From: Radiobacillus kanasensis
GTDB taxonomy: Bacteria; Bacillota; Bacilli; Bacillales; Amphibacillaceae
DNA: 64,000 nucleotides
Direction of reading: 5' to 3'
Assembly (NCBI RefSeq): GCF_021049245.1
Contig: NZ_CP088020.1
Span: 3,230,001-3,294,000, forward strand
Every line of letters starts with the position of its first letter. Position 1 is the first letter of the stretch. A program made the position numbers and the translations under genes. Below are positions 25,616 through 45,385 of this stretch, in pieces. Below the pieces are notes generated by a model. The model did no database searches, was not told where the DNA came from, and saw nothing but the letters and a program-made list of their open reading frames with translations.

Positions 25616-25690
25616 TTTCTTACATTCCTTTCTACTAATATCTTTCTTGTTATCTCTCATAAGATTTTTCTTTAATAGCTAAGTTAACAC

Positions 25691-26602: not shown

Positions 26603-26614
26603 CAGTACCACCCC

Positions 26615-27637: not shown

Positions 27638-28815
27638 AGAAAAACACCTTCTTCTTTAAATCTATCTAGACGCAAATGGCTTATGTCTATGGATGGAGGC
27701 TTACGGTCTATCATTTCAGAGATTACTTTCCCAGTTATAGCCGATAAACCAATCCCATCTCCCTCATGCCCTGCAGCAATATAGTAGCCAGGATATTGAT
27801 CCACTTCTGTAACAATAGGTAAATTATCCTTTGTCCAAGGTCTTAGACCTGCATAAACTCTAAGCAAGCTCATGTCCTTAAGTTTCGGGTAAAACCGCAT
27901 ACATCTCCTTGCCATAGTTTTGACAACATCCCAATTAACAGTTGTATCAAATCCAACAAATTGTCTACTAGATCCTAGTAGGAAATTTTGGCTTTGGGTA
28001 GGCTCAAACACTAGAGCAACACCGTATTCTTCTGTTTCTTTATCCACTACCCTTTCCCCACCAAACTTTGAAATTAGATATCCAAATTCCATCACTTTTC
28101 TTGGGGATACAGGGACTTGACGCGAGGATACTAAAATATGACCTTTCCTTGGAAAAATAGGGATGTTTAGATCCAACATTTTTCCTATTGATGGTGCCCA
28201 AACACCACCACAATTAATTACATATTTTGCGGTAACGGTTGCTTCACCCGTTTCTACGATATATTCATATGGGTTTTTGTAAAAAACGTTTTTGACAGGA
28301 CAATGTGTTAATAATTGGGCTCCGTATTGTCTAGCTCCTTCAAAAAGAGCGTAGGTTAGCATATAGGGGTTTACTGTTGAATCAGACACACACTCCAAGC
28401 CACCATATAAATCGTCTGCTAAATAGGGTGATTCAGCCTTTAAGTCAGATCGATCCAGCATCCGAAAGGGCAATCCTGCTTGTTTTTGTGAAGTAACCCA
28501 CTTCTCAGCCGCAACCATCTCTTCTTCTGTCTCACAAACTAGAATACTTCCAGGCTGTCTATACTCAAAATCCATAGGTAGGTCGTTTACAAGCTGGCCA
28601 ATCAACCTTTGACTCTCCAGAGCCATTCGACTATCGAATCCAGGGTCCTTGTCAATTGCTAATATATTCCCATCACAATGAGAACTGGTCCCACTTGCTA
28701 ATTCACCTTTTTCAATTACTGTCACTTCATAACCAAGTCTTGCCGTATAATAAGCAACAGCGCATCCCACAATGCCACCACCAATTATAGCTACCTCTGT
28801 ATTTAATTGTTTCAA
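27634..28815 (-). CDS. FAD-dependent D-amino-acid oxidoreductase, probable D-hydroxyproline dehydrogenase catalytic subunit
   Basis: A 393-residue DAO-family flavoprotein: Rossmann motif VAIIGGGIVGCAVAYYTARLG, then ELASGTSSHCDGNI, and a C-terminal VYAGLRPWTKDNLPIV and AAGHEGDGIGLSAITGKVI. Start is TTG with GGAGGGGGG upstream. Family and context suggest it oxidises cis-4-hydroxy-D-proline to pyrroline-4-hydroxy-2-carboxylate. In heteromeric D-hydroxyproline dehydrogenases of pseudomonads such a beta subunit works with a second flavoprotein and [2Fe-2S] subunits. Those subunits are encoded here at 32.5-34.3 kb in another operon. It is the first gene behind a sigma-54 promoter. Confidence 0.87.
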   Translation of the reverse strand: MKQLNTEVAIIGGGIVGCAVAYYTARLGYEVTVIEKGELASGTSSHCDGNILAIDKDPGFDSRMALESQRLIGQLVNDLPMDFEYRQPGSILVCETEEEMVAAEKWVTSQKQAGLPFRMLDRSDLKAESPYLADDLYGGLECVSDSTVNPYMLTYALFEGARQYGAQLLTHCPVKNVFYKNPYEYIVETGEATVTAKYVINCGGVWAPSIGKMLDLNIPIFPRKGHILVSSRQVPVSPRKVMEFGYLISKFGGERVVDKETEEYGVALVFEPTQSQNFLLGSSRQFVGFDTTVNWDVVKTMARRCMRFYPKLKDMSLLRVYAGLRPWTKDNLPIVTEVDQYPGYYIAAGHEGDGIGLSAITGKVISEMIDRKPPSIDISHLRLDRFKEEGVFL

Positions 28816-28844: not shown

Positions 28845-28859
28845 GCAAATACCGTGCCA
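28845..28859 (-). promoter_or_regulatory. Sigma-54 promoter of the epimerase/oxidoreductase operon
   Basis: On the minus strand TGGCAC, exactly 5 bases (GGTAT), then TTGC: a consensus -24/-12 element. It lies 30 bp upstream of the first gene's TTG and directly beside the divergent sigma-54 activator gene. Confidence 0.88.
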
Positions 28860-29002
28860 AACAATAGGAAGAATGAAACACTAAACTTTAAAATGATTCA
28901 CATACATCTGTCGGATTCTGCCTTTCTAGGAAGTTAGACAATTAACGAAAGATGTGTTTAAATTTTTATATAGCTGGAATGAAGAATTCGGGAGGGATTA
29001 CG

Positions 29003-30748
29003 GTGAAGCATATCTTACCAACGATTGAGGAGTTAACCAACACGAATTTTTCTGTCATTAATAATCCCCATGAGGATATCGATAAAAAAATCCTAGTAAG
29101 CGATACCTTCCTTTTTTGGTACCGATCCGAAACATTACTATCGCTTGCATCTGATATTTTCCGCACCCTATCTACGCTCAAAGTTCCTATAGATAAAATG
29201 CCATGGGCAGTTTCGGAAACCATACAACTAAATGAAGATTGGTACAGCATTATTCCATCCATAAAATGTGAGCGCTTACTAGTTGAGAATAACGGGTCTC
29301 CTGTTGGATACATAAACACCTCAGAACTAGCATCTACAGCACTATCTAGTTACCACTATTTAAAAACCTACCACGACACCATATTAGAAACTACGGATAG
29401 TAGTATTTCCGTTATCGATGAAAACAAAATTACGGTTGCATGGACAAGTGGTGCAGAAAAAATCTTCTCCATTAAAAGAGATGAAATTATTGGACAGCCA
29501 ATGAACCACTTTTTCGAAGATTCTATGTTAGAAATAATAAAAACAGTGGAGACAGGAGAAAGTGTACGTCGAAAGCAGCACCAACCACGAGAGGATTTGT
29601 TTGTTCTGATCAATACGAACCCAGTTAAAATCGGTGACAAAATTATAGGTGCGGTTGTAGCAGAAACAGATGTCACGGATCAAGTTCTTTTAAATAAGGA
29701 ATTAAACAATGCGAACAAGACAATCAAAAATTTAAGAGAAGAGGTTTCTAGAATTCGGCCATCCTACAATCCATTCCATTCCATCAAAGGGTCAAGTACT
29801 GCTATTAGTAAAACGCTAGAAAAAGTTAAACAAATTGGTACAACCCAAGCTAGAGTTCTTTTTTTAGGTGAATCTGGAGTTGGTAAAGAGTTATTTGCAA
29901 AGGCTATGCATGATATTCGGACCGGAGATGCAGCGCCCTTTATTCCCGTAAATTGTGGTGCCATACCAGAATCATTGTTTGAAAGTGAACTATTTGGATA
30001 TGAGAAGGGTGCCTTTTCCGGTGCCAATTCACACGGGAAAAAAGGAAAATTCGAGCTAGCTAAGGGAGGTACGCTTTTCCTTGATGAAATCGGCGAATTA
30101 CCATTGGAAATGCAAGTGAAACTGCTGAGAGTTTTGCAGGAAGGAACGTACTATGCAGTTGGAGGTACTAAACAAAAAAGGGCAGACTGTCAGATTATTA
30201 CGGCTACGAATAAAGACCTACAGAAATTAGTAAGTCAGGGGAAATTCAGGGAAGATTTATACTATAGATTAAATATTATTAGCATTACCATTCCGCCACT
30301 TAGAGAGCGTGTGGAGGATATAATAGAGTTAAGCCACTTATTTCTTTATGAATTTTCTACAAAGTATAATCGTGAAGTTCAACAAATTCCAAAGGAGATT
30401 ATGAGCGCCTTATTAAACCACCGATGGCCCGGTAATGTAAGAGAGCTTAGAAATGCAATCGAACGACTAGTTGTCTTTTCTTCAGGAGGACATTTGGACG
30501 TGTATGATTTACCATTTGAGCCAAATTCCAATCTTACTAGTCATGAAGATATTCTGTTGAATAAAGCCATACCTATGGATGACAATCAAATAGTACCGTT
30601 AAAAGACGCTTTAGCAAAACATGAAAAGATATTAATCGAGGCAGCATTGCAAGAAGTAAATGAGAATAAAAATAAAGCAGCTCAATTATTAAAAATCTCT
30701 AGAGCTACTTTATATAATAAGATGAACAAGTTAGGAATAGTTGACTAA
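29003..30748 (+). CDS. Sigma-54-dependent transcriptional activator of the hydroxyproline regulon
   Basis: A 581-residue bacterial enhancer-binding protein. I start at the GTG at 29003, which has GGGAGGG about 6 bases upstream; a frame from 28952 lacks a site. Domains: an N-terminal sensory region, a PAS domain (about 120-240, VIDENKITVAWTSGAEKIF), an AAA+ ATPase (about 255-490) with Walker A GESGVGKELF, the sigma-54 contact loop in the form GAFSGA, Walker B GGTLFLDEIGEL and an arginine-finger region (FREDLYYRLNI), and a C-terminal Fis-type helix-turn-helix (KNKAAQLLKISRATLYNKMN). It is surrounded by six -24/-12 promoters, so it is the obvious local activator; the ligand is likely hydroxyproline or a derived intermediate. 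Confidence 0.9.
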   Translation: MKHILPTIEELTNTNFSVINNPHEDIDKKILVSDTFLFWYRSETLLSLASDIFRTLSTLKVPIDKMPWAVSETIQLNEDWYSIIPSIKCERLLVENNGSPVGYINTSELASTALSSYHYLKTYHDTILETTDSSISVIDENKITVAWTSGAEKIFSIKRDEIIGQPMNHFFEDSMLEIIKTVETGESVRRKQHQPREDLFVLINTNPVKIGDKIIGAVVAETDVTDQVLLNKELNNANKTIKNLREEVSRIRPSYNPFHSIKGSSTAISKTLEKVKQIGTTQARVLFLGESGVGKELFAKAMHDIRTGDAAPFIPVNCGAIPESLFESELFGYEKGAFSGANSHGKKGKFELAKGGTLFLDEIGELPLEMQVKLLRVLQEGTYYAVGGTKQKRADCQIITATNKDLQKLVSQGKFREDLYYRLNIISITIPPLRERVEDIIELSHLFLYEFSTKYNREVQQIPKEIMSALLNHRWPGNVRELRNAIERLVVFSSGGHLDVYDLPFEPNSNLTSHEDILLNKAIPMDDNQIVPLKDALAKHEKILIEAALQEVNENKNKAAQLLKISRATLYNKMNKLGIVD

Positions 30749-30757
30749 GTATCAGAG

Positions 30758-30790
30758 GAGACAACGCACATAAAAGCGTTGTCTCTTTTT
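30758..30790 (+). terminator. Terminator of the activator gene
   Basis: A perfect 10-bp stem (GAGACAACGC / GCGTTGTCTC) with an 8-base loop and a T5 tail, 10 bases after the activator's stop. It also separates it from the convergent NhaC gene. Confidence 0.87.
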
Positions 30791-30794
30791 AATC

Positions 30795-32213
30795 TTAAGC
30801 TGATTGATCAACTTTTGTCTCATCTTTTTCATCCAACCAAAAGTGTTTAGCTTTATATCCAAAGTATATCGTTACAATAATACTGACAAAATTCAACCAC
30901 ATAAATGGCAAGTATTCTATGGTAGAAACTCCGAGTACCGCTGTCATGTACACCCCTGCATCTGTCCATGGGACCATTGGTGCTGTAAGAGTTCCCCCAG
31001 CTTCCGTATTCCTAGAAAGGACTCTGCGGTCAACCTTCATTTCATCGTACAGCTGTTCTGTAACTTTTGTACCCGTTATCATCGAAACGTACGCTGCACT
31101 ACCAAACACGTTACCAAAAAATGCGGAGAGAATTGTGGAAACAGTAAGACGTCCGGATTTCTTTTCACCTTTTTCCACCCAGTTTCTAAACATATTACTA
31201 AAGGCAGTTAAAACACCAATCTGCTCCATCAAGCCTCCCAAACCGAGCGCAAGTAAAATAAGTGCAATAACACCAAGCATTGCTGTGATTCCACCAGCAT
31301 TCAGTAGCTGATCTAGAAAATCGATTCCTGACTCAATGGTAAATCCATTATAAGCTGTTGTAATCGCTTCCAAAATATCCATCCCTTGAAATAAAGCTGC
31401 CCAAATAACACCTAGTAACGCTCCAAAGGTGATAACTGGAATCGAAGGCTTTTTCAACGCCAATAGGATAATAACAACAACTGCTGGGATTAATACATAC
31501 CAGCCAATTGAAAAGTTATCTTTTAAAGCTGAAGCTACTATTTCTGCTTGACTTAAATCAGCTGCACTATTGACGTAAAAGAAGCCTACTAGAGTGAATA
31601 AAACGGCAGTTATTAAATAGGTGGGCAAACTTATTCGTAACATGCCCTTTACATGGTCAATCACATCAAGCTTGGATAAAGACGCGGTCATCACCGTCGT
31701 ATCCGAAAGTGGTGACATTTTATCACCAAAGTAAGCACCTGATAACACAGCACCAGCAACTAAAGGCAATGGAACTCCAAAGCTAGCCCCAATTCCCATC
31801 ATGGCAATACCTGCTGTTCCCGCCGTACCAAATGAAGTACCTGTTGCCAGTGCGGTAACGGAACAAATAATCATTGTAGCCAACAGAAAAATCGATGGAT
31901 GTATAATTTGCAAACCATAATAGATAAGCCCCGGAACAACTCCGCCAGCTATCCAAGTCCCAATTAAGGCACCTACAGTAAATAAAACTAATGTGGCTTC
32001 TAAACCATTATAAATTCCTTTGGTAATTGAATCTTGTAATTCTTTGTACGAGTGTTTTAACTTTAATCCTAATCCAATGAATAAAAACCAAGAGGCAAAT
32101 AGTGCCAGTTGAATGGGTAAAGCAAATGTGGAAACCGATAAAAACATGATAACCAGAAACAAGCACAGTACAATCAGTACTTCCGTCATTCGAGGTTTTT
32201 GCACGTTGTTCAT
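30795..32213 (-). CDS. nhaC: NhaC-family Na+/H+ antiporter-type transporter
   Basis: A 472-residue membrane protein with about twelve helices and the NhaC-family segments TGTSFGTAGTAGIAMMGIG and GAYFGDKMSPLSDTTVM. The ATG at 32213 has GGGGAGG 7 bases upstream; an upstream in-frame TTG overlaps that site. NhaC proteins exchange sodium and protons, but family members in catabolic clusters can be organic-ion exchangers (malate/lactate type). Its own sigma-54 promoter in the hydroxyproline island suggests it supports uptake or ion balance for this pathway; hydroxyproline transport is possible but unproven. Confidence 0.82.
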   Translation of the reverse strand: MNNVQKPRMTEVLIVLCLFLVIMFLSVSTFALPIQLALFASWFLFIGLGLKLKHSYKELQDSITKGIYNGLEATLVLFTVGALIGTWIAGGVVPGLIYYGLQIIHPSIFLLATMIICSVTALATGTSFGTAGTAGIAMMGIGASFGVPLPLVAGAVLSGAYFGDKMSPLSDTTVMTASLSKLDVIDHVKGMLRISLPTYLITAVLFTLVGFFYVNSAADLSQAEIVASALKDNFSIGWYVLIPAVVVIILLALKKPSIPVITFGALLGVIWAALFQGMDILEAITTAYNGFTIESGIDFLDQLLNAGGITAMLGVIALILLALGLGGLMEQIGVLTAFSNMFRNWVEKGEKKSGRLTVSTILSAFFGNVFGSAAYVSMITGTKVTEQLYDEMKVDRRVLSRNTEAGGTLTAPMVPWTDAGVYMTAVLGVSTIEYLPFMWLNFVSIIVTIYFGYKAKHFWLDEKDETKVDQSA

Positions 32214-32276
32214 ATAATTCCTCCCCAAAGTTTAATTTTCATTAAAACAACCTCTCCCCCTTTCTCTTATGTTATT

Positions 32277-32291
32277 GCAAGTTTCATTCCA
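32277..32291 (-). promoter_or_regulatory. Sigma-54 promoter of the nhaC-type gene
   Basis: Minus strand TGGAAT, 5 bases (GAAAC), TTGC. The -24 half is weaker than consensus but the spacing is exact, and it lies 64 bp upstream of the start codon in a region shared with a consensus divergent sigma-54 promoter. Confidence 0.7.
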
Positions 32292-32344
32292 ATTATTACG
32301 AATTCTAGAGAAACCCCATAAGCATAAGCGTATGTATATATTTC

Positions 32345-32360
32345 TAGACAGTTATGTCTA
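32345..32360. promoter_or_regulatory. Candidate enhancer (UAS) palindrome for the sigma-54 activator
   Basis: Inverted repeat TAGACA - GTTA - TGTCTA placed between two divergent sigma-54 promoters, 54 bp from one and 62 bp from the other. A single GTTAGACAATTAACG half-site also occurs at 28933-28947 by the activator's own promoter region. Assignment as the activator's site is inference. Confidence 0.4.
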
Positions 32361-32421
32361 ATTTATTAGAAATTGATATTTTCATTCCTGGACCATACAA
32401 AATGTGGTTCACTTTATACTT

Positions 32422-32436
32422 TGGCACAATAATTGC
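32422..32436 (+). promoter_or_regulatory. Sigma-54 promoter of the dehydrogenase-subunit operon
   Basis: TGGCAC, 5 bases (AATAA), TTGC: an exact consensus -24/-12 element. Its -12 element ends about 36 bp before the GTG of the first gene. Confidence 0.9.
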
Positions 32437-32472
32437 ATTACTTTATTTGAATAGAAAAAAGGGGGACTACTT

Positions 32473-32739
32473 GTGGAAAATAATAAATTGATCATCTGTC
32501 GCTGTGAAGAGGTTAGTTATGAAGATATTTATAACACAGCAGAAAACTACTCCTGTTCCTCAAGGGAAATCAAATTACGAACTCGTGCGGGTATGGGCTA
32601 CTGTGGGGGGCGTACTTGTCGTCATCTTATTGAAAAAATTGTTTCTGACCTAAAAAGGGAGAAAGTCCCTGATACTTTATCCTTAAGTTTTCGCCCTCCG
32701 GTTCGACCAATTCCATTCAACACCTTCAAGGAGGATTAA
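32473..32739 (+). CDS. BFD-type (2Fe-2S)-binding subunit, D-hydroxyproline dehydrogenase complex
   Basis: An 88-residue protein starting at GTG with GGGGG upstream. It has a BFD-like [2Fe-2S] motif: ICRCEEV near the N-terminus and MGYCGGRTCRHL later, giving four cysteines in CxC...CxxxxC order. Such domains are separate subunits, or the C-terminal part, of multi-subunit amine and opine/hydroxyproline dehydrogenases. It is followed 2 bp later by a ferredoxin-like subunit and then an FAD/NAD-type flavoprotein, forming the electron-transfer half of the complex. Confidence 0.82.
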   Translation: MENNKLIICRCEEVSYEDIYNTAENYSCSSREIKLRTRAGMGYCGGRTCRHLIEKIVSDLKREKVPDTLSLSFRPPVRPIPFNTFKED

Positions 32740-32741
32740 TC

Positions 32742-33089
32742 ATGTCTTCATTAAGAATAACGAAACACCCCGTATTAGACATAGACCGAGAACAAATCGA
32801 AATAGAATTCCAATTTAATAATAAAACATATATGGCTTATCAAGGGGATACGATTGCAAGTGCCCTACTTGCCAACGGTATCCGGAACTTACGCGTCCAT
32901 GAAGAAACAGGGGCACCTCGGGGGATCTACTGTAATATTGGCCATTGCTTTGAATGTCGTGTCACTGTGGATGGTCAAGAAGGATATAGGGCATGTCTTA
33001 CCCTAGTTACCAATGGAATGGTCGTCCAATCCGGACAGAAACTCCCAACACCATTTAAAAAGACAGAAAGGGAGATGAACCATGGTTGA
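32742..33089 (+). CDS. Ferredoxin-like (2Fe-2S) subunit, D-hydroxyproline dehydrogenase complex
   Basis: A 115-residue Fer2_4-type protein. Cluster-binding cysteines appear in YCNIGHCFECRV and downstream RACLT. The GDTIASALLANGI segment is typical of the small gamma subunit of sarcosine-oxidase-like and hydroxyproline/hydrogen-cyanide-synthase-like complexes. AAGGAGG precedes the ATG and its stop overlaps the next gene by 8 bp, so subunits are made in fixed ratio. Confidence 0.83.
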   Translation: MSSLRITKHPVLDIDREQIEIEFQFNNKTYMAYQGDTIASALLANGIRNLRVHEETGAPRGIYCNIGHCFECRVTVDGQEGYRACLTLVTNGMVVQSGQKLPTPFKKTEREMNHG

Positions 33090-34281
33090 CTTGATTATTA
33101 TTGGGGCTGGTCCTGCTGGATTATCCGCAGCAATTGCTGCGGCAAAAAATGACCTTGAGGTTATGGTCATAGATGAATTCATCAAACCTGGTGGTAGGCT
33201 GTTGGGACAGTTACATAAGGAGCCAGATGGCATCTGGTGGAATGGGGTGGAAGAAGCAGAAAAACTATATCAGCAAACAAATGATTTACCGATTGAATTC
33301 CACCTTGGAACTAGTGTTTACCATATGGAGAACAAGACCGATCATTGGCTAATCCAGACAGACAAAGGAATATATAAAAGCAACTACCTTCTCATAGCAA
33401 CTGGAGCTGCAGAGCGAAGCGTACCTGTCCCTGGCTGGACATTGCCTGGTGTCATGTCGATTGGAGCCGCACAAGTTATGGCTAATGTACATCGTGTAAA
33501 ACCTGGCCAAAACGGAGTCATAATTGGGATTAACGTATTGTCTATGGCCATCGCTCGTGAATTAAAGTTATCTGGAGTAAACATCAAAGGAATTATTTTA
33601 CCATCCTATAATCTGTTAACTAATGAAGGTGCAAATCCCTCAACGGTTTTTGATAACTTACTAGATTTGGTCCATCTCGCACCCTCTCCCCTTTTTAAGC
33701 TAGGAGGAGCTATTACAAATAAATTTTCCTTTATTAAAAAAACCGCTGTTCAAGCTTATCCAAGGAATGGATTTAAAGCATGGAAGATTCCGATTCAACT
33801 TAGACGGGCGGTGGTTGAAATCTTAGGTGAAAAGCAGGTCGAAGGTGTTAAAGTAGCAGATATTACACCATCTGGAGTCGTTATCCAGGGTACTGAAAAA
33901 ATAGTAGAAGTGGACTTTGTATGCATTGCTGGAGGACTATATCCTCTAACAGAATTAATCGGCATGACCAATTGTCCATTAAAGTACATACCTTCTCTAG
34001 GCGGTCATGTTCCTGTACACAATGATCAAATGGAAACACCGATTCACAATTTGTATGTAGCCGGCAACATAACCGGAATTGAAAGCGCCAAGGTGGCAAA
34101 GGCACAAGGAACTGTAGCAGGATTATCAATCGCTAAAGGTGCCCATAAATTACATGAGTCCCAACTATTGGATGATGCGATTAAACAGGTAGATAACGAA
34201 AGACAACATGCACTGATTCAGTTTGATGCCGACATACAAAATGGAAGAAATACGATACATGAAATTGCCGAAACCTATTAA
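33082..34281 (+). CDS. FAD/NAD(P)-binding oxidoreductase subunit, D-hydroxyproline dehydrogenase complex
   Basis: A 399-residue pyridine nucleotide-disulfide-type flavoprotein: N-terminal LIIIGAGPAGLSAAIAAAKN, then IATGAAERSVPVPGWTLPGV and a late LYVAGNITGIESAKVAKAQG. The second Rossmann loop reads VIIGINVLSMAIARELK and lacks the usual GxGxxG, so it may no longer bind NAD(P), as in the alpha subunit of heteromeric D-amino-acid dehydrogenases. It should transfer electrons from the DAO-type subunit encoded in the divergent operon. Confidence 0.85.
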   Translation: MVDLIIIGAGPAGLSAAIAAAKNDLEVMVIDEFIKPGGRLLGQLHKEPDGIWWNGVEEAEKLYQQTNDLPIEFHLGTSVYHMENKTDHWLIQTDKGIYKSNYLLIATGAAERSVPVPGWTLPGVMSIGAAQVMANVHRVKPGQNGVIIGINVLSMAIARELKLSGVNIKGIILPSYNLLTNEGANPSTVFDNLLDLVHLAPSPLFKLGGAITNKFSFIKKTAVQAYPRNGFKAWKIPIQLRRAVVEILGEKQVEGVKVADITPSGVVIQGTEKIVEVDFVCIAGGLYPLTELIGMTNCPLKYIPSLGGHVPVHNDQMETPIHNLYVAGNITGIESAKVAKAQGTVAGLSIAKGAHKLHESQLLDDAIKQVDNERQHALIQFDADIQNGRNTIHEIAETY

Positions 34282-34358
34282 TTTACAGTGATAAAGGTGA
34301 TAAAGAAAATAGGATATCGACCATATTTAGTTAATCATCATCTAGTAATCTAAGAAGT

Positions 34359-34373
34359 TGGCATAGAACTTGC
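34359..34373 (+). promoter_or_regulatory. Sigma-54 promoter of the deaminase/aldehyde dehydrogenase operon
   Basis: TGGCAT, 5 bases (AGAAC), TTGC, 125 bp before the deaminase start. A 6-bp-arm palindrome (CACTAA - TCAT - TTAGTG, about 34445-34460) lies in the leader downstream. Confidence 0.85.
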
Positions 34374-34498
34374 AAGTTAACAATTGACTAAAGGTGTATG
34401 TTCAAAAAGTCGCTAGGTTAGAAGCTATTTATACTAATAAGCGGCCACTAATCATTTAGTGACATGAACATCGACTAAAAACAAGGAGTGAATGTTAG

Positions 34499-35383
34499 AT
34501 GACAAAATTTAATGGAGTACACGTAGCACTTGTTACCCCTATGAAAAAGGATTACAGCGTAGATTTTACAAGATTAACGGAAATTTGCAATTGGTTAATA
34601 GACGAAGGCGTGGATGGACTTGTTCCTGCTGGTTCATTAGGAGAATATGCTACTTTATCACATGAAGAAAGAGCTAAGGTCGTCGAAACCGTTATCGAGG
34701 CTAGTAACAACCGTGTCCCAGTAATCGTAGGTACTGGCGCTGCCGCTACACAGGATGTTATCTATTGGGCTAAACATGCAAAAGATAATGGTGCAGCTGG
34801 GATTATGGCACTACCACCAATCAATTACAATCCATTAGAAAATGAAGTTATCTACCATTATAAACAGCTATCAAATGTCGGAATACCAATCATCGCTTAT
34901 AATAATCCGCGTGATTATGCGACAGACCTAACTCCAGATTTGTTGGCAAGACTTAGCAAAATCGAAAACGTGGTCGCGGTAAAAGAATTCAGCGGTGATA
35001 TTAGAAGAGTCCACGATATTATAGAAAAAACAGATCTAGAAGTTCTAATTGGGGTCGATGATCTAGGAATGGAAGGACCACTCAGTGGAGCAACGGGGTG
35101 GATTTCCGGCGTCCCTAACGCTCTTCCAAAAGAAGGTATTGAATTATTTAACCTAGCTAGAGCAGGAAAAATAGAAGAAGCCTTACCTTTATATCGAAGA
35201 CTTCTACCATTGTTTCACTTTGATGCACAACCCCAGTTGGTGCAAGCAATTAAGTACATGATGGAACTTGCCGAACAACCAGCAGGGCCAACAAGACCAC
35301 CACGTTTACCATTAACAAATGAAGAGTATATTGATATTAAAAATGCTTTCTTACTAGCAAAAAACAAACACGTAAACGTTTAA
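34499..35383 (+). CDS. Pyrroline-4-hydroxy-2-carboxylate deaminase (DapA family)
   Basis: A 294-residue DHDPS/NAL-family TIM barrel with Schiff-base lysine in VVAVKEFSGD, the GSLGEYATLSHEER segment, and GTGAAATQDVI. In hydroxyproline degradation this family member dehydrates and deaminates the dehydrogenase product to alpha-ketoglutarate semialdehyde. Dihydrodipicolinate synthase has similar motifs, but position between the dehydrogenase subunits and a semialdehyde dehydrogenase supports the deaminase. CAAGGAGTGA precedes the ATG. Confidence 0.85.
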   Translation: MTKFNGVHVALVTPMKKDYSVDFTRLTEICNWLIDEGVDGLVPAGSLGEYATLSHEERAKVVETVIEASNNRVPVIVGTGAAATQDVIYWAKHAKDNGAAGIMALPPINYNPLENEVIYHYKQLSNVGIPIIAYNNPRDYATDLTPDLLARLSKIENVVAVKEFSGDIRRVHDIIEKTDLEVLIGVDDLGMEGPLSGATGWISGVPNALPKEGIELFNLARAGKIEEALPLYRRLLPLFHFDAQPQLVQAIKYMMELAEQPAGPTRPPRLPLTNEEYIDIKNAFLLAKNKHVNV

Positions 35384-35404
35384 TCTGAGAAAGGAGCGGA
35401 TATC

Positions 35405-36859
35405 GTGACATTACTAGACCAACAAGTAATCACCAAAAATTGGATCAACGGCGAATGGGTCAAAGGAGACGGTGATCCATTAACGGTCAGGAACCCGGCC
35501 AATCTAAAGGAAACGATTGGAGAGTTAACTTTGTCTACCTCTGTGCAAGTAAAAGCAGCAGAAGAGTCTGCGCGAAACGCCCTGCAGTCTTGGAAGTCTA
35601 CAACCGGTAATGAACGTGGACAGTATTTATACAAAATGGCCAATGCATTAGAGCAAAATGCTGAGGCACTAGCTGAGTTAGCCACGAAAGAAATGGGAAA
35701 ACCTATAGGTGAAATGAAAGGCGAAGTGGCACGTGGTGTCCAATTACTTAGATATTATGCTGGCGAAGGTGTTCGATCAGATGGAGACGTAATTCCTTCT
35801 ACTGCACAAGGAGTACTCCAATATAGCAAGAGAATTCCTTTAGGCGTGGTTGGCTTAATTACACCGTGGAATTTTCCTGTTGCTATCCCAATTTGGAAGC
35901 TAGCTCCTGCACTTATTTGTGGCAATACCGTTGTTTGGAAACCAGCTGAGAATAGTTCTCTTAGTGCATATAAACTTTGCCAAATTTTTGAGGAAGCTGG
36001 AATTCCAAAGGGTGTCATCAACTTAGTTATCGGTAAAGGGAGTGAAATTGGATCCTACCTCGTTGAGAGAACAAGCATTAATGGGTTATCTTTTACAGGC
36101 TCCACAGCTACTGGAACGAATATAGCCGCGATTTCTGCACAAAGAAATATAAAGTATCAAACGGAAATGGGCGGAAAAAATGCTGCAGTGGTGCTAAAAG
36201 ATGCAGATTTAAGTACAACTGTCGCCCCTATCTTAAGCGGTACTTTCCGTTCAGCGGGACAAAAATGTACAGCTTCCAGTCGAATTATTGTCGAAGAAGC
36301 TATCTATGATGAATTCGTTACTGCATTACAAAAGGAAATGAAAAATGTCCGATTAGATTATCCATTACATGAAGACAGCTACCTTGGACCAGTAGCATCA
36401 AGAGCCCAGTACGCAAAAGTACAGTCGTATGTAGAATTAGCCAAACAAGAAGCAGAAATCATCTATGAAAATAAAGATCAACCTGAATACGAAGGCTATT
36501 ATGTAAATCCGTTAGTCGTGGCAGGAGTTGCCAATGACCATCCGTTAGCAAAGGAAGAGATTTTTGGACCACTAACAGTAGTCATCAAAGCAAAAGATTA
36601 TCAAGATGCAATAGAGATATTGAATGACTCGGAATATGGTTTAAGTGGCTCTATTTTTACAAATGACTTAAGTAAAGCTCACCAGTTTCTAGAGGATGCA
36701 GAGATTGGCATGGTAAGAGCTAACTTAGAAACCGCAGGTGTAGAATACCAAGCACCATTTGGTGGATTAAAACAATCCAGCTCACATACACGTGAACAAG
36801 GTCAAGCAGCCTTGAACTTCTATTCTAATTTGAAAACATGCGCCATAAAATATAAATAA
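35405..36859 (+). CDS. Alpha-ketoglutarate semialdehyde (2,5-dioxovalerate) dehydrogenase
   Basis: A 484-residue aldehyde dehydrogenase. Start GTG with AAAGGAG upstream. Catalytic landmarks: VVGLITPWNFPVAIPIWKLA, the glutamate in TEMGGKNAAVVL, the nucleophilic cysteine in RSAGQKCTASSRI, and EEIFGPLTVV. It completes the route to 2-oxoglutarate and the TCA cycle. NAD versus NADP preference cannot be told. It lies 21 bp after the deaminase gene. Confidence 0.88.
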   Translation: MTLLDQQVITKNWINGEWVKGDGDPLTVRNPANLKETIGELTLSTSVQVKAAEESARNALQSWKSTTGNERGQYLYKMANALEQNAEALAELATKEMGKPIGEMKGEVARGVQLLRYYAGEGVRSDGDVIPSTAQGVLQYSKRIPLGVVGLITPWNFPVAIPIWKLAPALICGNTVVWKPAENSSLSAYKLCQIFEEAGIPKGVINLVIGKGSEIGSYLVERTSINGLSFTGSTATGTNIAAISAQRNIKYQTEMGGKNAAVVLKDADLSTTVAPILSGTFRSAGQKCTASSRIIVEEAIYDEFVTALQKEMKNVRLDYPLHEDSYLGPVASRAQYAKVQSYVELAKQEAEIIYENKDQPEYEGYYVNPLVVAGVANDHPLAKEEIFGPLTVVIKAKDYQDAIEILNDSEYGLSGSIFTNDLSKAHQFLEDAEIGMVRANLETAGVEYQAPFGGLKQSSSHTREQGQAALNFYSNLKTCAIKYK

Positions 36860-36871
36860 GTAACGAAAATC

Positions 36872-36906
36872 GAGTGGGGAAAGAGTTCTTTGGTCTTTCT
36901 CCACTC
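36872..36906 (+). terminator. Hairpin after the aldehyde dehydrogenase gene
   Basis: Arms GAGTGG-GGAAAGA and TCTTTCT-CCACTC form a long stem 12 bases after the stop. The T tract is short (CCTTTC), so it may be a weak terminator or allow some read-through into rpoN. Confidence 0.6.
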
Positions 36907-36987
36907 CTTTCAAGAGATTCTTTCGCTATATATTCTTGTACATTAAAATATATTAGAAGTGTATTTTCTAAAAAGGGGGGAGATCAC

Positions 36988-38325
36988 ATGTTAGATTTAG
37001 GGATATTTCAAGAACAGAAATTGAAACTTGCGATGACAACCGAAATGAAGCAAGCTATATCCATTTTACAATTCTCGTCACTTGAGTTAGCTGAATTCGT
37101 TAAAAATGAGGCGTTAGACAATCCTTTAATCGAATTAGAAGAACCACAGTTACAAATGGAAGGGCGAAATTATTCTCATAAAAAAAGCTCTGTAGGTGGT
37201 TCTAGCTACCAATCCCCACTGGACTTTTTTCGTTCTAAAGAAGGAGATTCCCTCCACGACTCTTTAATCAGTCAAGTTTCTTTTTTGTCATTGTCTAAAC
37301 AGGAAAAATATATAGTGGATTACCTTATATTAACCTTAGATGAAAACGGCTACCTTGCAGAGGAGCCACTAGACAGTGCGAGCCATCTTCGCGTGTCCTT
37401 GCAAGATGTGCAGCATGCTATTAAAATCATTCAACAATTAGAACCTATTGGAGTAGGTGCCTCCAATCTAAAGGAATGTCTTTCTATTCAGATAGACTAC
37501 TATTACCCTAATCATAAGGATGCCCAAAATGTCGTCCTATACTATTTAACTGAACTATCGATGAGAAATTGGAAGTTAATCGCCAAGGAACTCCACATCT
37601 CTTTGAACAGGGTCAAAGAAATTTTTGAAATCATTCAAACCTTAAATCCAAAACCAGGCTCCCTTTTTGACAACCATATAAAAACAAACTATATTATTCC
37701 AGATTTACATATCCAAATTTTAAATAACAAACTGACTATTCAAGTTAACGATAAAGTTATGCCTAAAATAAGTGTTGCTTCCGACTATGAACCCATGCTC
37801 CATACTTTTTCAAATAAACAAAATCCTACAGCAAAATACTTGAAAAACAAGTATAAACATGTGATGTGGTTAAATAAAAGTATAGAACATCGAAGAATTA
37901 CTCTTTTCAATGTAATGAAAGCGATTACTTATAAACAGATGGATTTCTTCCAAAAAGGACCTAGTCATCTTAATCCGCTAACCTTGAAAGAAATAGCCAA
38001 AATATGTGATGTACATGAGTCAACTGTAAGTAGAGCAACCAATAATAAATATGTTCAAACTCCATTTGGTGTCTATGAATTAAAACACTTCTTCTCTTCT
38101 GCTATTCAACTATCAAATGGTCTGACCACCTCCTCCTATACGATTAAACATATAATGAAAGAACTAATTGAACGTGAGGACCCTACTAAGCCAATGTCTG
38201 ATCAAAAATTAACTGTACTTCTAAGAGATAGGAATATTTTAGTCTCAAGAAGGACGGTAGCTAAGTACCGTGAACAGCTTGGTATCCCTTCTTCTACCAA
38301 TCGTAGAAGATCCATTTCTTATTAA
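36988..38325 (+). CDS. rpoN: RNA polymerase sigma-54 factor
   Basis: A 445-residue sigma-54 (SigL in Bacillus). The ATG at 36988 has GGGGGGAG 5 bases upstream; a longer frame from 36874 would run through a hairpin. Region I (QKLKLAMTTEMKQAISILQF) contacts the activator, a core-binding domain follows (about 90-270), then helix-turn-helix motifs and the RpoN box (SRRTVAKYRE near the C-terminus) that reads the -24 element. It is placed at the end of the hydroxyproline island, whose operons carry at least six -24/-12 promoters. A possible vegetative promoter (TTGTAC about 36936, TGTATT about 36960) suggests it is not itself sigma-54-dependent. Confidence 0.93.
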   Translation: MLDLGIFQEQKLKLAMTTEMKQAISILQFSSLELAEFVKNEALDNPLIELEEPQLQMEGRNYSHKKSSVGGSSYQSPLDFFRSKEGDSLHDSLISQVSFLSLSKQEKYIVDYLILTLDENGYLAEEPLDSASHLRVSLQDVQHAIKIIQQLEPIGVGASNLKECLSIQIDYYYPNHKDAQNVVLYYLTELSMRNWKLIAKELHISLNRVKEIFEIIQTLNPKPGSLFDNHIKTNYIIPDLHIQILNNKLTIQVNDKVMPKISVASDYEPMLHTFSNKQNPTAKYLKNKYKHVMWLNKSIEHRRITLFNVMKAITYKQMDFFQKGPSHLNPLTLKEIAKICDVHESTVSRATNNKYVQTPFGVYELKHFFSSAIQLSNGLTTSSYTIKHIMKELIEREDPTKPMSDQKLTVLLRDRNILVSRRTVAKYREQLGIPSSTNRRRSISY

Positions 38326-38343
38326 AACCTTACTCAACGTAAA

Positions 38344-38381
38344 AACCGAGTTCACCTTTATGGAAGCTCGGTTATATTTTT
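38344..38381 (+). terminator. Terminator of rpoN
   Basis: A 7-bp stem (AACCGAG / CTCGGTT) with a 16-base loop followed by TATATTTTT, 18 bases after the rpoN stop and immediately left of the inserted IS element. Confidence 0.7.
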
Positions 38382-38417
38382 CATAAAAAAGAGGCTGGGA
38401 CAAAACCCAGTAACTAA

Positions 38418-38464
38418 AAAGAGTGGCACCCACACCATAAACCAGTGAGTGTCACTCTTTTTTT
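38418..38464 (+). terminator. Hairpin inside the left end of the IS element
   Basis: AAAGAGTG pairs with CACTCTTT, with inner GCAC/GTGT pairing possible, and a T7 tract follows. It probably blocks transcription entering the transposase gene from outside, a known insulation device of insertion sequences. Confidence 0.65.
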
Positions 38465-38551
38465 AATAAAATCCCAAAAAAATGTACGCAAAAAGGATAC
38501 CTTCTGATAATGTTAAAGTTACCACACCCAAACAGAATCGGAGGTATCCTT

Positions 38552-40309
38552 ATGTTTAAACAGTATAACATGAATCAAGTCATTTTGCCGCTAGATTTGG
38601 AAATCAAACTACAGGAAAACGATATCGCCTATGCCGTCCATGATGTCGTGGAAGCTATTCCAGATGAGGCATTCACTGGATTTCTGCGTGAAACGGGATG
38701 TCCGGCTTATCATCCGCGCATGATGATGAAAGTGGTTTTATGTGCTTATACGCAGTCGGTGTTCTCTGGCAGAAAGATCGAGGGATTACTGAAAGACAGT
38801 GTCCGGATGATGTGGCTGGCCCAGGGGTATGAACCAAGTTACCGGACAATTAACCGTTTCCGTGTCCATCCGGAGGTAAAGGAACTATTGCGTCAGTGCT
38901 TTGTCCAATTCCGTTGTCAGCTTGTCCGGGAAAACGTCATCGAGGAAGAAGCCATTTTTATGGACGGAACGAAAATCGAAGCGAATGCCAACAAGTTTAC
39001 GTTTGTCTGGCGCAAAGCGACGGAAAAGTACAGTTCCCGTTTAGTGGAAAAGTCTAACCGGATGTATGAAGAACTGTTGGAGAAAGAAATCATTCCGGAA
39101 ATAGAACGGGAAAGTATGGAGGAACTATCCAGCCAAGAACTCGAAAAAGTGGTGGAAAAGCTGGAGGAGACGGTTGGTGAATATGATAAAAAGATAGAAG
39201 CAAGTGAAGACGTAAGCGAACGGAAACAGCTTCGTTCTGAGCGCAAAACCCCTAAACAATACGGCAAGCAATTCAAGGATTTTGTGGTGCGCAAACAAAA
39301 ATACCAACACGATATGGCCATCTTCGGAGAGCGCAACAGTTATTCGAAAACGGATCACGATGCCACCTTCATGCGCATGAAGGATGATTACATGAAAAAC
39401 GGCCAGCTCAAAGCCGGGTATAACGTGCAACTTGCGACAGAAGGACAGTATGCGCTCGCTTATGACGTGTTTCCGAATCCAACGGATACGCGTACCTTCA
39501 CACCTTTCCTGGATAACATTGAGGAACACTTCTTTGACCTACCCAACTATATTGTCGCGGATGCCGGCTATGGGAGTGAACAAAATTACGAAGACGTCAT
39601 CGAAAATCGGAAACGCACGCCATTGATTACGTATAACCAATACCGGAAAGAAAAGAAAAAGAAATATAAGCAGGATGCCTTTAACGTAGCCAATTGGCAT
39701 TACGATGAGATCGAAGATGCGTTTACGTGTCCAAACGATAAAAAATTAACATTCCGCTATCTATCCAATCGAACAGACCGATATGGTTATACAAGAACAT
39801 ATAACGTCTATGAGTGTGAGGACTGTTTCGGTTGTCCGTTACGTTCGCAATGTACGAAAGCGAAGGAAGGAAACAATCGAAAGATCTATTATAATGAAAA
39901 GTGGGAAAACCAAAAAGCATATACGAGACAGCAGCTTTCGGAAAAAGAAACGGGGAAAATCTATGGCAAACGCAAAATAGATGTAGAACCCGTCTTCGGA
40001 TTTCTGAAGGCTAATTTGCGTTTCACCCGTATGTCGGTGAGAGGTAAAGAGAAAGTAGAAAAGGAACTGGGATTTGCATTCATGGCGGTAAACTTGAGAA
40101 AGTACACGGCCATGAATGCAAATCCAACCATAGATGGTGACCATAATTCAAACCAAAATGGTTCCCATCATCGAAAACCGATGATGGGAACCATTTTTAG
40201 GTTATTCTTGGCTAGTTATGTCCCAGCCTCTCCTTTTTTTCAGGGAATACTTATTTCCCCTCAATATAAGCCCATTTATAACTTGCGAATACCCCGAATG
40301 GGTGTGTAA
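38552..40309 (+). CDS. IS1182-family transposase
   Basis: A 585-residue DDE transposase. The ATG at 38552 has GGAGG 7 bases upstream. Features: the N-terminal DUF772-like domain (YHPRMMMKVVLCAYTQSVFS, SYRTINRFR), the first Asp in FMDGTKIEANANKFTFVW, a coiled Lys/Glu insertion (about 190-245), ADAGYGSEQNYE with the second Asp, a Cys-rich segment (CEDCFGCPLRSQC) and EPVFGFLKANL with the Glu. The frame continues through the right inverted repeat and ends 78 bp outside the element, so its last residues come from flanking DNA, and it overlaps the oppA end antisense by 59 bp. It is otherwise intact. Confidence 0.88.
   Translation: MFKQYNMNQVILPLDLEIKLQENDIAYAVHDVVEAIPDEAFTGFLRETGCPAYHPRMMMKVVLCAYTQSVFSGRKIEGLLKDSVRMMWLAQGYEPSYRTINRFRVHPEVKELLRQCFVQFRCQLVRENVIEEEAIFMDGTKIEANANKFTFVWRKATEKYSSRLVEKSNRMYEELLEKEIIPEIERESMEELSSQELEKVVEKLEETVGEYDKKIEASEDVSERKQLRSERKTPKQYGKQFKDFVVRKQKYQHDMAIFGERNSYSKTDHDATFMRMKDDYMKNGQLKAGYNVQLATEGQYALAYDVFPNPTDTRTFTPFLDNIEEHFFDLPNYIVADAGYGSEQNYEDVIENRKRTPLITYNQYRKEKKKKYKQDAFNVANWHYDEIEDAFTCPNDKKLTFRYLSNRTDRYGYTRTYNVYECEDCFGCPLRSQCTKAKEGNNRKIYYNEKWENQKAYTRQQLSEKETGKIYGKRKIDVEPVFGFLKANLRFTRMSVRGKEKVEKELGFAFMAVNLRKYTAMNANPTIDGDHNSNQNGSHHRKPMMGTIFRLFLASYVPASPFFQGILISPQYKPIYNLRIPRMGV
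40155..40197. repeat. 19-bp perfect hairpin inside the transposase reading frame
   Basis: A perfect 19-bp stem (outer AAAATGGTTCCC, inner CATCATCG) with loop AAAAC, followed by TTAG. It could terminate transcription within the element, before the frame's stop codon, or be a recognition structure near the right end. Confidence 0.8.
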
Positions 40310-41913
40310 CGTAGCCCTTCACATAAGGTTTCTTTAATAATGCCTGACCGTTTTGATACATTGGAGAAATGGCGACATCTTCTTCAATTAGAATTCGCTC
40401 TGCCTCTTGAAGGTTTTCCCATCTTTGCTCGAAGTCTGTTGTATTTTTCGCACCCAACACTAAATCATCAAATGTCTCATTTCTATATGCAGACCAGTTA
40501 TTTGGACCTTCTGACAAATACAAATCAATAAATGTCATCGGATCTTGATAATCAGGACTCCAACCAGAATAGGTTAAGTCATAGTCCATACTAGATTCTT
40601 TTGCCAACTTTTGCTTATTAGGTTGTTGATCAATGGAAATTGTTAGACCTGGAAGATTCTTTTCCAATTGGTTTTTAACATAAGACGATACCGCGCCCCT
40701 TTCATCACCATCATAGCTCAATAATTCTAATTCAATGCTATCTACACCAAGCTCTTCTAAACCTTTTTCCCAATACTTCTGAGCTTCCTCCACTCCGCCA
40801 GTATTAAAGCCTTCATAGTTATCTCTGAAATCTTCACCAGCATCATTAAAAGCGAATTCCTTAGGTACTAAGAAGTTGGCTGCAATAGCACCATTATTCA
40901 GAATTGTTTCTGCAGCTGCTTCCTTATCCCATATCGATTGCTCTCCGGATATTTTCATTTGCTAAATATTCATTTTGTTGATTCATTCGAATGAAGAATA
41001 CTTCTGGCTTTAGGAGAGGTTGATATTCATCACTACTTGCATACTGACTGACGAACTCACCAGTAATCTCAGTTAAATCAATTTCCCCCGTTTCATAAAG
41101 GTTCACTCTTGTCGCTACATTTTCAGCAACCTTTACATTAATGGTATCTAATTTAACAGATTCGCTATCCCAATATTGATCATTCTTTTTATAGGTCCAT
41201 CCTTCACCATGATTCCATGAATCTAGAACAAACGGTCCATTATATATTAGGTTTTCTGCCTCTAGAGCATATTGATCACCCTGTGATTCCACAAATTCCT
41301 GATTTTGTGGAAAAAAGGTTGCTGTAGAAATTAAGCTTACAAAGTAAGGGACTGCGTTCCTTAATTCAACTTCAAATGTATAGTCATCAATAACTTTAAT
41401 ACCTAATTCGTCAACCTTTCCAAATAAAGAATCATCCTTATCTTGAATAGCAGCAGCATTTTTTATATCATTAAAAAGGTAAGCGTACGGTGACATAGTA
41501 TCCGGATGAAGTGACTTTTTCCATGCATATTCGAAATCATTTGCTGTTACTGGAGTACCATTCGTCCAAACAGCATCTTCTCTTAAATGAAAAGTGTACG
41601 TTTTTCCATCCTCTGAAACATCGTAGCTTGTTGCCATACCAGGTACTGGTTTATCATCCTTTCCAAGTCGATAAAGACCTTCCATGACATTGTTTAACGT
41701 TTTACCAGATAGTACATCCATTAATCCCGTGGAGTTCATTGTAGGGATATCTCCACCCTCAACCAAGTTTAACACTTGTGAGCTTTCTGATTCAGATCCT
41801 GCTTTAGGCTCCTCCTGGTCGGTTGCCGTTTTTTCATCTGTCTTAGTAGAACAACCAACTAAAATTACAATCATTAAAAGAAGCACACACAAAATTGTTC
41901 CTCTCATTTTCAA
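40251..41913 (-). pseudogene. oppA: Oligopeptide-binding protein gene (oppA-like), frameshifted
   Basis: An SBP_bac_5-type lipoprotein gene. Start TTG at 41913 with GGGGAG 7 bases upstream; signal peptide with lipobox LVGC. The N-terminal 329 residues (…NENIRRAIDMG) stop at about 40946, and the remainder continues in another frame (DKEAAAETILNNG… to the normal C-terminus WAYIEGK at 40251). The two parts overlap and fit one ~550-residue OppA, so one base change in length disrupts it; a sequencing error cannot be excluded. It sits behind a sigma-54 promoter and would import peptides, perhaps collagen-derived, for the two Xaa-Pro peptidases. No permease or ATPase genes are beside it. Confidence 0.82.
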
Positions 41914-42096
41914 ACTAATTCTCCCCTTTTTAATTAATTTCATCTTGAACTGTTTGACTTACATGTCTGAAAATAATTACTAAAGATGAAATTACGGTTT
42001 GATAAAATTTTTAAAATTTGGAACAAGGAGCTCCTGTTTTATTTGCCTCCTTCCCGATTAGTGAAAAGCTATTAATGTCCCGTTATAGAACTTAAA
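41914..42096 (-). other. Leader of the oppA-like gene
   Basis: About 180 AT-rich bases between the sigma-54 promoter at 42097-42111 and the TTG start. An AAGGAGCTCCT palindrome (near 42030) is present; I see no gene here. Confidence 0.4.
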
Positions 42097-42111
42097 GCAA
42101 GTTTTATGCCA
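42097..42111 (-). promoter_or_regulatory. Sigma-54 promoter of the oppA-like gene
   Basis: Minus strand TGGCAT, 5 bases (AAAAC), TTGC. It lies about 185 bp upstream of the TTG start and is divergent from the next sigma-54 promoter, with about 170 bp between them for shared enhancer binding. Confidence 0.82.
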
Positions 42112-42281
42112 AAATACTGCTTATACAAAGAAAGCTACATAGGGAATGATTTGAAAATAAATCTCTTATTAAGACGAACTGAAAATCGTACAAAAATTTA
42201 AACATGTAAACTTAATTTTCTAACTATTTATACAATTATGTGAACATGATACAAAATCCTTCTATACGATTAGCTTTTTGT

Positions 42282-42296
42282 TGGTATGAAACTTGC
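42282..42296 (+). promoter_or_regulatory. Sigma-54 promoter of the second Xaa-Pro peptidase gene
   Basis: TGGTAT, 5 bases (GAAAC), TTGC, 39 bp upstream of the GTG start. Its position shows that an in-frame extension of the peptidase to 42240 cannot be the real start. Confidence 0.82.
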
Positions 42297-43762: not shown

Positions 43763-43785
43763 AGTTACGTCCCAAGTAGAACTAT

Positions 43786-45247: not shown

Positions 45248-45385
45248 CTTCTTCTCCTCAATAAAAGATAATAAAATTTTAGCATAAAGTTATCCACAAC
45301 TAACGACTTTTATAATTTCCTAGACAACAAAGAAAAGCTAACAAAATAATATAATTTTGCCAGCTTATAAATAGTGATATCGTTG

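Follow-up and report, generated by a model that had tools for sequence, protein, structure and literature searches.

A probable hydroxyproline-catabolic sigma-54 regulon with its own activator and RpoN in Radiobacillus kanasensis

Gene content of the island

The DNA analysed here, called the window throughout, is a stretch of 64,000 nucleotides from the 4.03-Mb genome of Radiobacillus kanasensis (contig NZ_CP088020.1; G000:C1:3230001-3294000 in our comparison set), and within it lies an island of genes that is probably a sigma-54 regulon for catabolism of hydroxyproline (Hyp, an amino acid found in collagen) with its own sigma-54 enhancer-binding protein (EBP) and its own RpoN. As a first-pass annotation of the bare sequence had proposed, the island encodes one EBP and one RpoN, both of which are intact. 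The EBP (28952..30748, + strand) combines a PAS domain, an AAA+ domain with the loop motif GAFSGA and a Fis-type helix-turn-helix (PF00989, PF00158 at 3.1e-67 and PF02954, respectively). The gene referred to here as rpoN2 (36988..38325, +) specifies a second sigma-54 with intact AID, CBD and DBD domains (PF00309, PF04963 and PF04552, all above cut-off; TIGR02395 at 431 bits, likewise above cut-off), and its RpoN box, SRRTVAKYRE, conforms to the motif [A/S]RRTVAKYRE. The -24/-12 consensus and its numbering, the GAFTGA and Walker A motifs, the RpoN box and the cre consensus were used in their commonly known forms.

The route of Hyp breakdown runs through an epimerase, a D-hydroxyproline dehydrogenase, a deaminase and a 2-oxoglutarate semialdehyde dehydrogenase (KGSADH), and these four enzyme families co-occur in the island. 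The operon headed by the DAO gene, read from 28815 down to 24509 on the minus strand, comprises a DAO-type flavoprotein that is a putative D-hydroxyproline dehydrogenase subunit (27634..28815; PF01266 at 8.8e-71), a proline racemase/4-hydroxyproline 2-epimerase in which both MCGHDT and DRSPCGTG are present (26615..27637), a paralogue of the proline racemase family lacking the second catalytic Cys (25691..26611; DRSPYNG) and, in last place, an M24 peptidase of the Xaa-Pro type (24509..25660; an open reading frame, or ORF, reaching 254 of the 630 bits needed for NCBIfam PepQ). The island thus exceeds the range 28845..42296 given in the first-pass annotation, which omits this operon. Also on the minus strand is an NhaC-family carrier that may serve as the substrate transporter (30795..32228; PF03553 at 1.7e-71, with TIGR00931, Na+/H+ antiporter NhaC, above cut-off). 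On the plus strand, genes for a BFD ferredoxin, a 2Fe-2S protein (Fer2_4) and an FAD oxidoreductase, assigned by Pfam and putatively encoding further dehydrogenase subunits (32473..34281), are followed by a DHDPS-family enzyme, which from its context is a putative pyrroline-4-hydroxy-2-carboxylate deaminase (34499..35383; PF00701 at 6.2e-63), and by the putative KGSADH (35405..36859), for which the alpha-KGSA dehydrogenase model was the best in NCBIfam (614 of 770 bits needed). Beyond rpoN2 lie an oppA-like gene for a peptide-binding protein (40251..41943, -), broken into two overlapping frames by a pseudogenizing change or a sequencing slip and continuous in the related genome G034, and a second M24 peptidase of the Xaa-Pro type (42336..43394, +, start assigned; PF00557 at 7.4e-68). 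A transposase-like ORF separates rpoN2 from the oppA-like gene (38510-40309), and related copies of it (69-75%) are found near the island of G054. Many genomes have relatives of the Cys-less racemase paralogue (25691-26611), at 23-46% identity, in their Hyp islands.

The earlier claim that all steps from Hyp to 2-oxoglutarate are encoded therefore stands at the level of enzyme families, and the enzyme set is consistent with Hyp as the substrate, an assignment made from context. No island enzyme reached a Hyp-specific NCBIfam cut-off. The epimerase scored 359 of the 376 bits needed for 4-hydroxyproline epimerase and 396 of 556 for proline racemase, its best solved relative being the proline racemase 7pb3, and the DHDPS-family enzyme, at 208.1 bits, narrowly passed the 206.15 bits set as the cut-off for DapA. 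A related compound such as D-proline, a sarcosine-like N-methyl compound or proline betaine might be degraded instead, under any reading of the sigma factors, and these scores speak for it. We nevertheless regard it as unlikely, since an epimerase, a DAO-type dehydrogenase, a DHDPS-family deaminase and a KGSADH are known to fit Hyp jointly, the epimerase is at most 17 bits short of the 4-hydroxyproline epimerase cut-off, and peptidases of the Xaa-Pro type stand under the same type of promoter. Similar operons of Bacillus thuringiensis, on the other hand, have been named for sarcosine metabolism, and a sigL mutant of that species grows poorly on sarcosine and proline (accessible part of PMC4428206).

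Sigma-54 promoters of the island

Six -24/-12 elements lie at the coordinates and on the strands previously claimed, and each precedes a gene. The pattern proposed for them, TGGCAY-N5-TTGC, is matched exactly at four positions: 28845..28859 (-; TGGCAC) before the DAO operon, where relatives carry an orthologous site, 32422..32436 (+; TGGCAC) before the BFD-Fer2-OxRed operon, 34359..34373 (+; TGGCAT) before the DHDPS-KGSADH(-rpoN2) unit, and 42097..42111 (-; TGGCAT) before the oppA-like gene. The other two deviate by one mismatch, namely the NhaC element at 32277..32291 (-; TGGAAT), in whose place G034 and G028 have an exact site, and the peptidase element at 42282..42296 (+; TGGTAT). The distance from the end of an element to the assigned gene start is 30-154 bp, and five of the six are outside every ORF. 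The sixth, at 42282, falls within the peptidase ORF when this is read in its longest form, from the first Met at 42246, and is upstream of the gene only if translation starts at 42336, a start preceded by the ribosome-binding-site-like AAGGAG. Exact sites were found at all six positions in G034 and at the DAO, NhaC, BFD and DHDPS positions in G028.

The raw motif count was rejected as proof of promoters, as the window holds 9 matches with at most one mismatch relative to 5.6 +/- 2.2 in shuffled sequence, and 12 of 100 shuffles reach 9; the real evidence is the position of the elements relative to genes. In the whole 4.03-Mb genome the strict pattern TTGGCAY-N5-TTGCW matched seven times (reversed control, 0), with four sites in the island, one before an operon of the bkd type and two in ORFs. 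The looser TGGYAY-N5-TTGC gave 40 matches, 31 of them inside ORFs of at least 80 aa, some of which may be spurious, and three in non-ORF sequence that no gene follows within 260 bp. The remaining six were promoter-like, five belonging to the island (42282 being counted with the start at 42336) and one to the bkd-type operon. For the patterns scanned, the genome search proposed in the first-pass annotation thus added a single promoter-like match beyond the island; the sigma-54 regulon may be larger than island and bkd-type operon together, given that the scan covered exact matches to these patterns.

Candidate operators and expression of rpoN2

A dyad, TGTCTAA-N4-TTAGA, is a candidate operator for the EBP and occurs at 28923..28940 (1 mismatch), at 32355..32372, flanked by the divergent promoters of NhaC and BFD (no mismatch), and at 42217..42234, in the interval that separates the oppA promoter from the peptidase promoter (1 mismatch). 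With up to two mismatches it stands upstream of five of the six island promoters, from three places of which two are common to divergent promoters, and upstream of 3/6 promoters in G034 and 5/5 in G028, in one case merely 3 bp from the promoter. The dyad scan found no operator for the DHDPS promoter of the window. At this stringency the window contains 19 matches relative to 11.0 expected, a number reached in 2 of 100 shuffles, and one-mismatch copies are also intragenic (27832 and 35737). The motif was derived from these same promoters, so that its enrichment there is partly circular. Among 48 regions, six, at four distinct places, held an exact palindrome of the dyad form with 5-bp arms, compared with a maximum of 3 in 20 single-base shuffles.

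Between KGSADH and rpoN2 there is a hairpin of 35 bases that lacks a T-run (36872..36906, +). The 141-base stretch separating the two genes folds with a z of -3.1, and the corresponding gap in G034, of about 66 bp, has a similar inverted repeat. A sigma-54 promoter belonging to rpoN2 itself was looked for and dropped, as the seven relatives scanned have no relaxed GG-N10-GC site in the 450 bp upstream of the gene. Partial read-through from the 34359 promoter into rpoN2 would constitute positive feedback.

The second sigma-54 of the host

The genome search for a second rpoN suggested in the first-pass annotation was positive. Whereas the island gene has no cggR nearby, the other host copy adjoins cggR, and we call the cggR-linked type SigL and the island type RpoN2. 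A GAFT/SGA loop was present in just two of the six PF00158 matches of the host, the island EBP and a second EBP located about 60 bp upstream of the -24/-12 site of the bkd-type operon, whose genes encode a phosphate butyryltransferase, an amino acid dehydrogenase, a butyrate kinase and a 2-oxoacid dehydrogenase. In view of this additional sigma factor and EBP the earlier description of the regulon as self-contained calls for revision, and loss of all island transcripts upon rpoN deletion, which the first-pass annotation would have taken as support, is not to be assumed because SigL is also present.

G001, which belongs to the same genus, yielded a single sigma-54, of the SigL type, and a single EBP match; it has no EBP of the Hyp class. 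The G001 sequences matching the window at about 18.3 kb and 58.0 kb are only 1.55 kb apart, and the region in which the island therefore sits, about 40 kb long, is variable; the island was probably acquired laterally. The stretch 43739-45338, with a transposase-like ORF, recurs at another place in G001 as a 92% copy, and the adjacent 46 bp (43692-43737) are retained between the joined flanks of that genome.

Two classes of sigma-54 in the family

In a comparison set of 159 genomes of the family, a sigma-54 match (E <= 1e-10) was obtained in 98 and none in 61. The classes were split by score to the island RpoN, at about 300 bits or more for the RpoN2 type and 261 or less for the SigL type; a protein of intermediate score in G082 (273 bits) and a fragment in G206 were left unclassed. 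The RpoN2 type was present in 34 genomes and was the only sigma-54 found in 27 of these, while seven genomes (G000, G002, G027, G046, G068, G164 and G166) had both. Across 60 stretches, mostly of 20 kb, around sigma-54 genes (32 RpoN2-type, 28 SigL-type), cggR accompanied 27/28 SigL-type genes, the exception being close to a contig end, and 0/32 RpoN2-type genes, and an EBP was encoded in 12/32 RpoN2-type as opposed to 0/28 SigL-type stretches (p 1.8e-4). Judged by eye, some other RpoN2-type genes adjoin other EBP-bearing catabolic clusters. The island RpoN belongs to a separate, patchily distributed class. Two genes of the set, the SigL of G171 (L277) and the RpoN2 of G208 (L184), are each broken into two frames. 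EBP-like matches (E <= 1e-60) unaccompanied by a sigma-54 match were seen in G044, G062, G081 and G023, through missing assembly or loss of the sigma factor, and G044 has an entire Hyp island.

Trees were built by a short search with SH-aLRT support only. For the sigma-54 tree, L071, L187, L195 and L200 (no clean ORF), L184 (split frame) and L209 were excluded, and 13 references were chosen from 80 listed loci of a broader contig scan. In this tree the family SigL forms a clade on a long stem; 31 of the 32 RpoN2-type rows form one group together with two references, with G040 outside, and cggR-linked sigma-54s of other families fall on the RpoN2 side. RpoN2 may therefore be the ordinary form and the family SigL the derived one, a polarity that the long branches leave unsure. 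In genus g38 the RpoN2 proteins occupy more than one place in the tree while the five SigL rows cluster together, which suggests transfer of RpoN2.

A cre-like site was found upstream of 19/32 RpoN2-type and 0/28 SigL-type genes (background, 45/3000 windows), suggesting different catabolite control of the two classes. Catabolite control through such a site was rejected for the window, where none precedes the island rpoN2, and the subclade comprising G034, G028, G022, G207 and G030 likewise has none. A CcpA roadblock that controls sigL in B. subtilis was reportedly described by Choi and Saier in 2005.

Linkage of RpoN2 to the Hyp activator

The Hyp class of EBP, defined by a score above 500 bits, was present in 26 of the 159 genomes, of which 15 have RpoN2, 10 have SigL without RpoN2 and one has no sigma-54 that we could find. 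Within 20 kb of the Hyp EBP, RpoN2 was encoded in 9 of the 15 genomes having both genes and SigL in 0/15, and in all five dual-sigma genomes with a Hyp EBP the RpoN2 gene is inside the island. The linkage of an rpoN to a single catabolic regulon, pointed out in the first-pass annotation as unusual, thus recurs in other genera. G046 and G166, which do not belong to the same genus, branch as sisters in the trees of RpoN2 (100) and of the EBP (99; two of 29 rows, G028 and G164, dropped) but not in that of SigL, as expected if the RpoN2 and EBP genes moved together. Hyp enzymes are not near the Hyp EBP in G179, which has no RpoN2, and in G203, which has it.

That RpoN2 is a passenger, a redundant relic of transfer in an island run by SigL and the EBP, would agree with the 10/26 EBP genomes that lack RpoN2, with the absence of linkage in 6 of the 15 genomes having both genes and with the fast evolution of rpoN genes in the family. 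A relic would hardly be expected to show recurrent linkage, the island gene is intact in its three domains, and the status of RpoN2 as the sole sigma-54 found in 27/34 genomes indicates a functional class, so that we consider a mere passenger quite improbable.

Promoter preference and the -12 helix

The base preceding TTGC, at position -16, was C in 10/21 Hyp promoters of RpoN2-only genomes and in 1/20 of SigL-only genomes (exact-core sites picked from nine genomes each, with one-mismatch sites excluded), a difference whose p value of 0.0036 is uncorrected because the position was chosen after viewing this table. Genome-wide, C versus T counts at -16 were 56/65 in 24 of the 27 RpoN2-only genomes (without G063, G204 and G208) and 22/110 in 24 of about 62 SigL-only genomes (p 3.6e-7; by genome 1e-4), with reversed-pattern controls of 7/11 and 6/15, respectively, and with some sites shared with the Hyp-promoter table. 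Within the seven dual genomes, C was found at 9/18 sites located at most 20 kb from RpoN2 and at 5/54 sites elsewhere (p 5.6e-4), these 72 sites being unfiltered for intergenic position (reversed control, 5). The BFD promoter carried C in 10/13 genomes with RpoN2 and in 1/9 without it, some of the BFD assignments, including those in G027 and G046, being made by position alone; its base in the window is A.

In the sigma factors, the -12 helix (HESTxSR) has Glu before STxSR in 30/32 RpoN2-type proteins and in 0/23 of the SigL type, where Ile, Val or Leu takes its place. These residue counts exclude loci from the broader contig scan, whose search pattern biases this residue. Glu is also present in 115 of the 120 nearest homologues, which identifies SigL as the sigma factor that changed, and the view of RpoN2 as the carrier of a changed helix was dropped. 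In G022 and G030, where the RpoN2-type protein has Val in the helix, C occurred at 0/6 sites in comparison with 56/115 (p 0.03, post hoc).

A further interpretation is that RpoN2 boosts the dose: both sigma factors would act at the same promoters, with the island copy raising the supply of sigma-54 after induction of the pathway or being regulated differently from SigL. The core promoter is identical in both classes, nine SigL-only genomes keep the same island, rpoN2 follows KGSADH directly and in the same direction in the window and in G034, and the cre-like sites described above indicate differently regulated classes. Conversely, the island rpoN2 and its subclade lack this site, and the class differences in -12 helix and -16 base suggest some promoter preference. 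On balance we find this interpretation somewhat unlikely. At -16, the B. thuringiensis promoters listed in PMC4428206 (accessible part) mostly have T or A, and the preference does not simply extend beyond the family.

A third, divergent sigma-54

In addition to SigL, G179 and G182, two genomes of another genus, encode a sigma-54 of 404-406 aa with 23-27% identity to the other two types (L276:13397-14620 in G179, L275:10315-11583 in G182). Its gene lies inside a Hyp-like island with a GAFTGA EBP and is arranged tail to tail with the DHDPS gene, and its AID scores under the Pfam cut-off. The DAO and BFD promoters of both islands read TTGGCAC-N5-TTTCTT, with TTTC for TTGC; this sequence occurred four times in 3.54 Mb of partly overlapping loci, precisely at those four promoters, and neither locus contained an exact canonical -24/-12 site. 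Between the two genomes, which are not independent, the promoter stretch is 99% and the third sigma 78% identical. The family of this protein comprises 49 members at 43% identity or more, among them proteins of Oceanobacillus jeddahense, Salinicoccus and Mammaliicoccus, with the next match at 28%. An altered RpoN box, SRRTVNKYK, was present in 49/49 members and the helix Glu in 0/49. Plasmid and viral searches with the third sigma gave nothing or only matches below 60% identity (21-27% for those listed).

Discussion

Gene content, promoter elements, the two sigma factors of the host and a linkage recurring in several genera were observed directly. They are best accommodated, in a judgement we hold with modest confidence, by a probably laterally acquired island for Hyp and proline peptides that is run by one EBP and its own RpoN2, with SigL serving the bkd-type operon. 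According to this model, trans-4-hydroxyproline and peptides containing proline or Hyp would be the substrates. The EBP, which has a PAS domain, would sense a pathway intermediate, bind the TGTCTAA-N4-TTAGA dyads and remodel RpoN2-polymerase waiting at the six promoters of the TTGGCAY-N5-TTGC type, while the DHDPS-KGSADH promoter may read through the hairpin into rpoN2 and so provide positive feedback; the resident SigL would serve the bkd-type operon. We infer the ligand, the operators, the read-through and the role of RpoN2 as the main sigma factor of the island.

Several observations weigh against this model. Nine of the ten Hyp-EBP genomes without RpoN2 have Hyp genes beside the EBP, SigL alone and the same -24/-12 core, and hence RpoN2 is not a general requirement of the pathway, nor is this class of EBP tied to it. 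Nor does GAFSGA mark RpoN2-specific activators, an idea we rejected because all 24 Hyp EBPs scored have it whatever their sigma factor. The closest EBP (67%) and RpoN2 (56%) in the family are those of G028, where the two are on different contigs. The island may have been lost from G001 rather than gained by the window strain, and the hairpin preceding rpoN2 might function as a terminator. As for promoter preference, just two of the four strict sites in the window carry C at -16, the contrast is weak in genus g15 (RpoN2, 3 C/11 T; SigL, 5 C/24 T) and absent from the RpoN2-only genomes G173 and G011 (each 0 C/5 T), the dual-genome sites were unfiltered, the changed helix resides in SigL rather than RpoN2, and shared ancestry can be the source of part of the -16 and helix pattern. 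The DapA score of the putative deaminase adds to this list.

More tentatively, and with somewhat more doubt than conviction, we propose to regard the Hyp islands of Bacillota as portable sigma-54 modules that have repeatedly been equipped with a private sigma factor, and the third sigma with its TTTC promoters as an orthogonal end stage. A private sigma would let such islands work in hosts that have no sigma-54 or one that is differently tuned. The window island would then represent an RpoN2 of the ordinary type entering a genus in which the -12 helix of SigL is altered, with promoters that lean to another -16 base. Sigma-54 is usually viewed as one shared factor for many activators, whereas this catabolic island seems to come with one of its own, in a family where 61 of 159 genomes gave no match to sigma-54. 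The transfer of sigma-54 regulons from one host to another, and the means by which a second sigma escapes cross-talk, thereby become questions that can be put in concrete terms. If confirmed, the TTTC promoters paired with the divergent sigma-54 would be a case in which the nearly invariant GC at -12 has changed in nature, and would supply an orthogonal expression pair that is ready for use.

The closest known system is that of B. thuringiensis HD73, where HD73_3142-3147 and 3140-3138 have -24/-12 promoters and one EBP, and sigL and EBP mutants were tested (PMC4428206, accessible part, as for the following statements on HD73). Its operons share with the island a sarcosine-oxidase-beta-type gene, proline racemase, DHDPS, aldehyde dehydrogenase and a carrier, and the second operon ends in sarcosine oxidase alpha, the whole being a sigma-54/SoxR system. 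It differs in that a single sigL is named, no rpoN is reported in the cluster and the carrier is an amino acid carrier instead of NhaC. Several sigma-54 paralogues are known from Cereibacter (Rhodobacter) sphaeroides, in which RpoN1, RpoN2 and RpoN3 (with NifA, FleQ and AprX) each have a cognate EBP and gene set, with specificity residing partly in promoter base -11 (PMC11999139, accessible part). That organism is a Proteobacterium in which nif, flagellar and xrpA genes rather than an amino-acid island are controlled, and the base that varies here is -16. The cggR-linked SigL of Firmicutes belongs to the same protein family, and the association of sigma-54 with CggR has been reported (PMC3162934, accessible part), but none of the 32 RpoN2-type genes showed cggR in its neighbourhood, and 12 of them had an EBP there. 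According to a survey, about 5% of organisms have multiple rpoN copies, and its table may include Bacillaceae (PMC12316311, accessible part). In a partial coverage of the literature we found no paper tying a second sigma-54 of Bacillaceae to a catabolic island. Sigma-54 control of this gene set was thus already known from B. thuringiensis, as sarcosine metabolism (PMC4428206), and what appears to be new is a private sigma-54 that travels with it.

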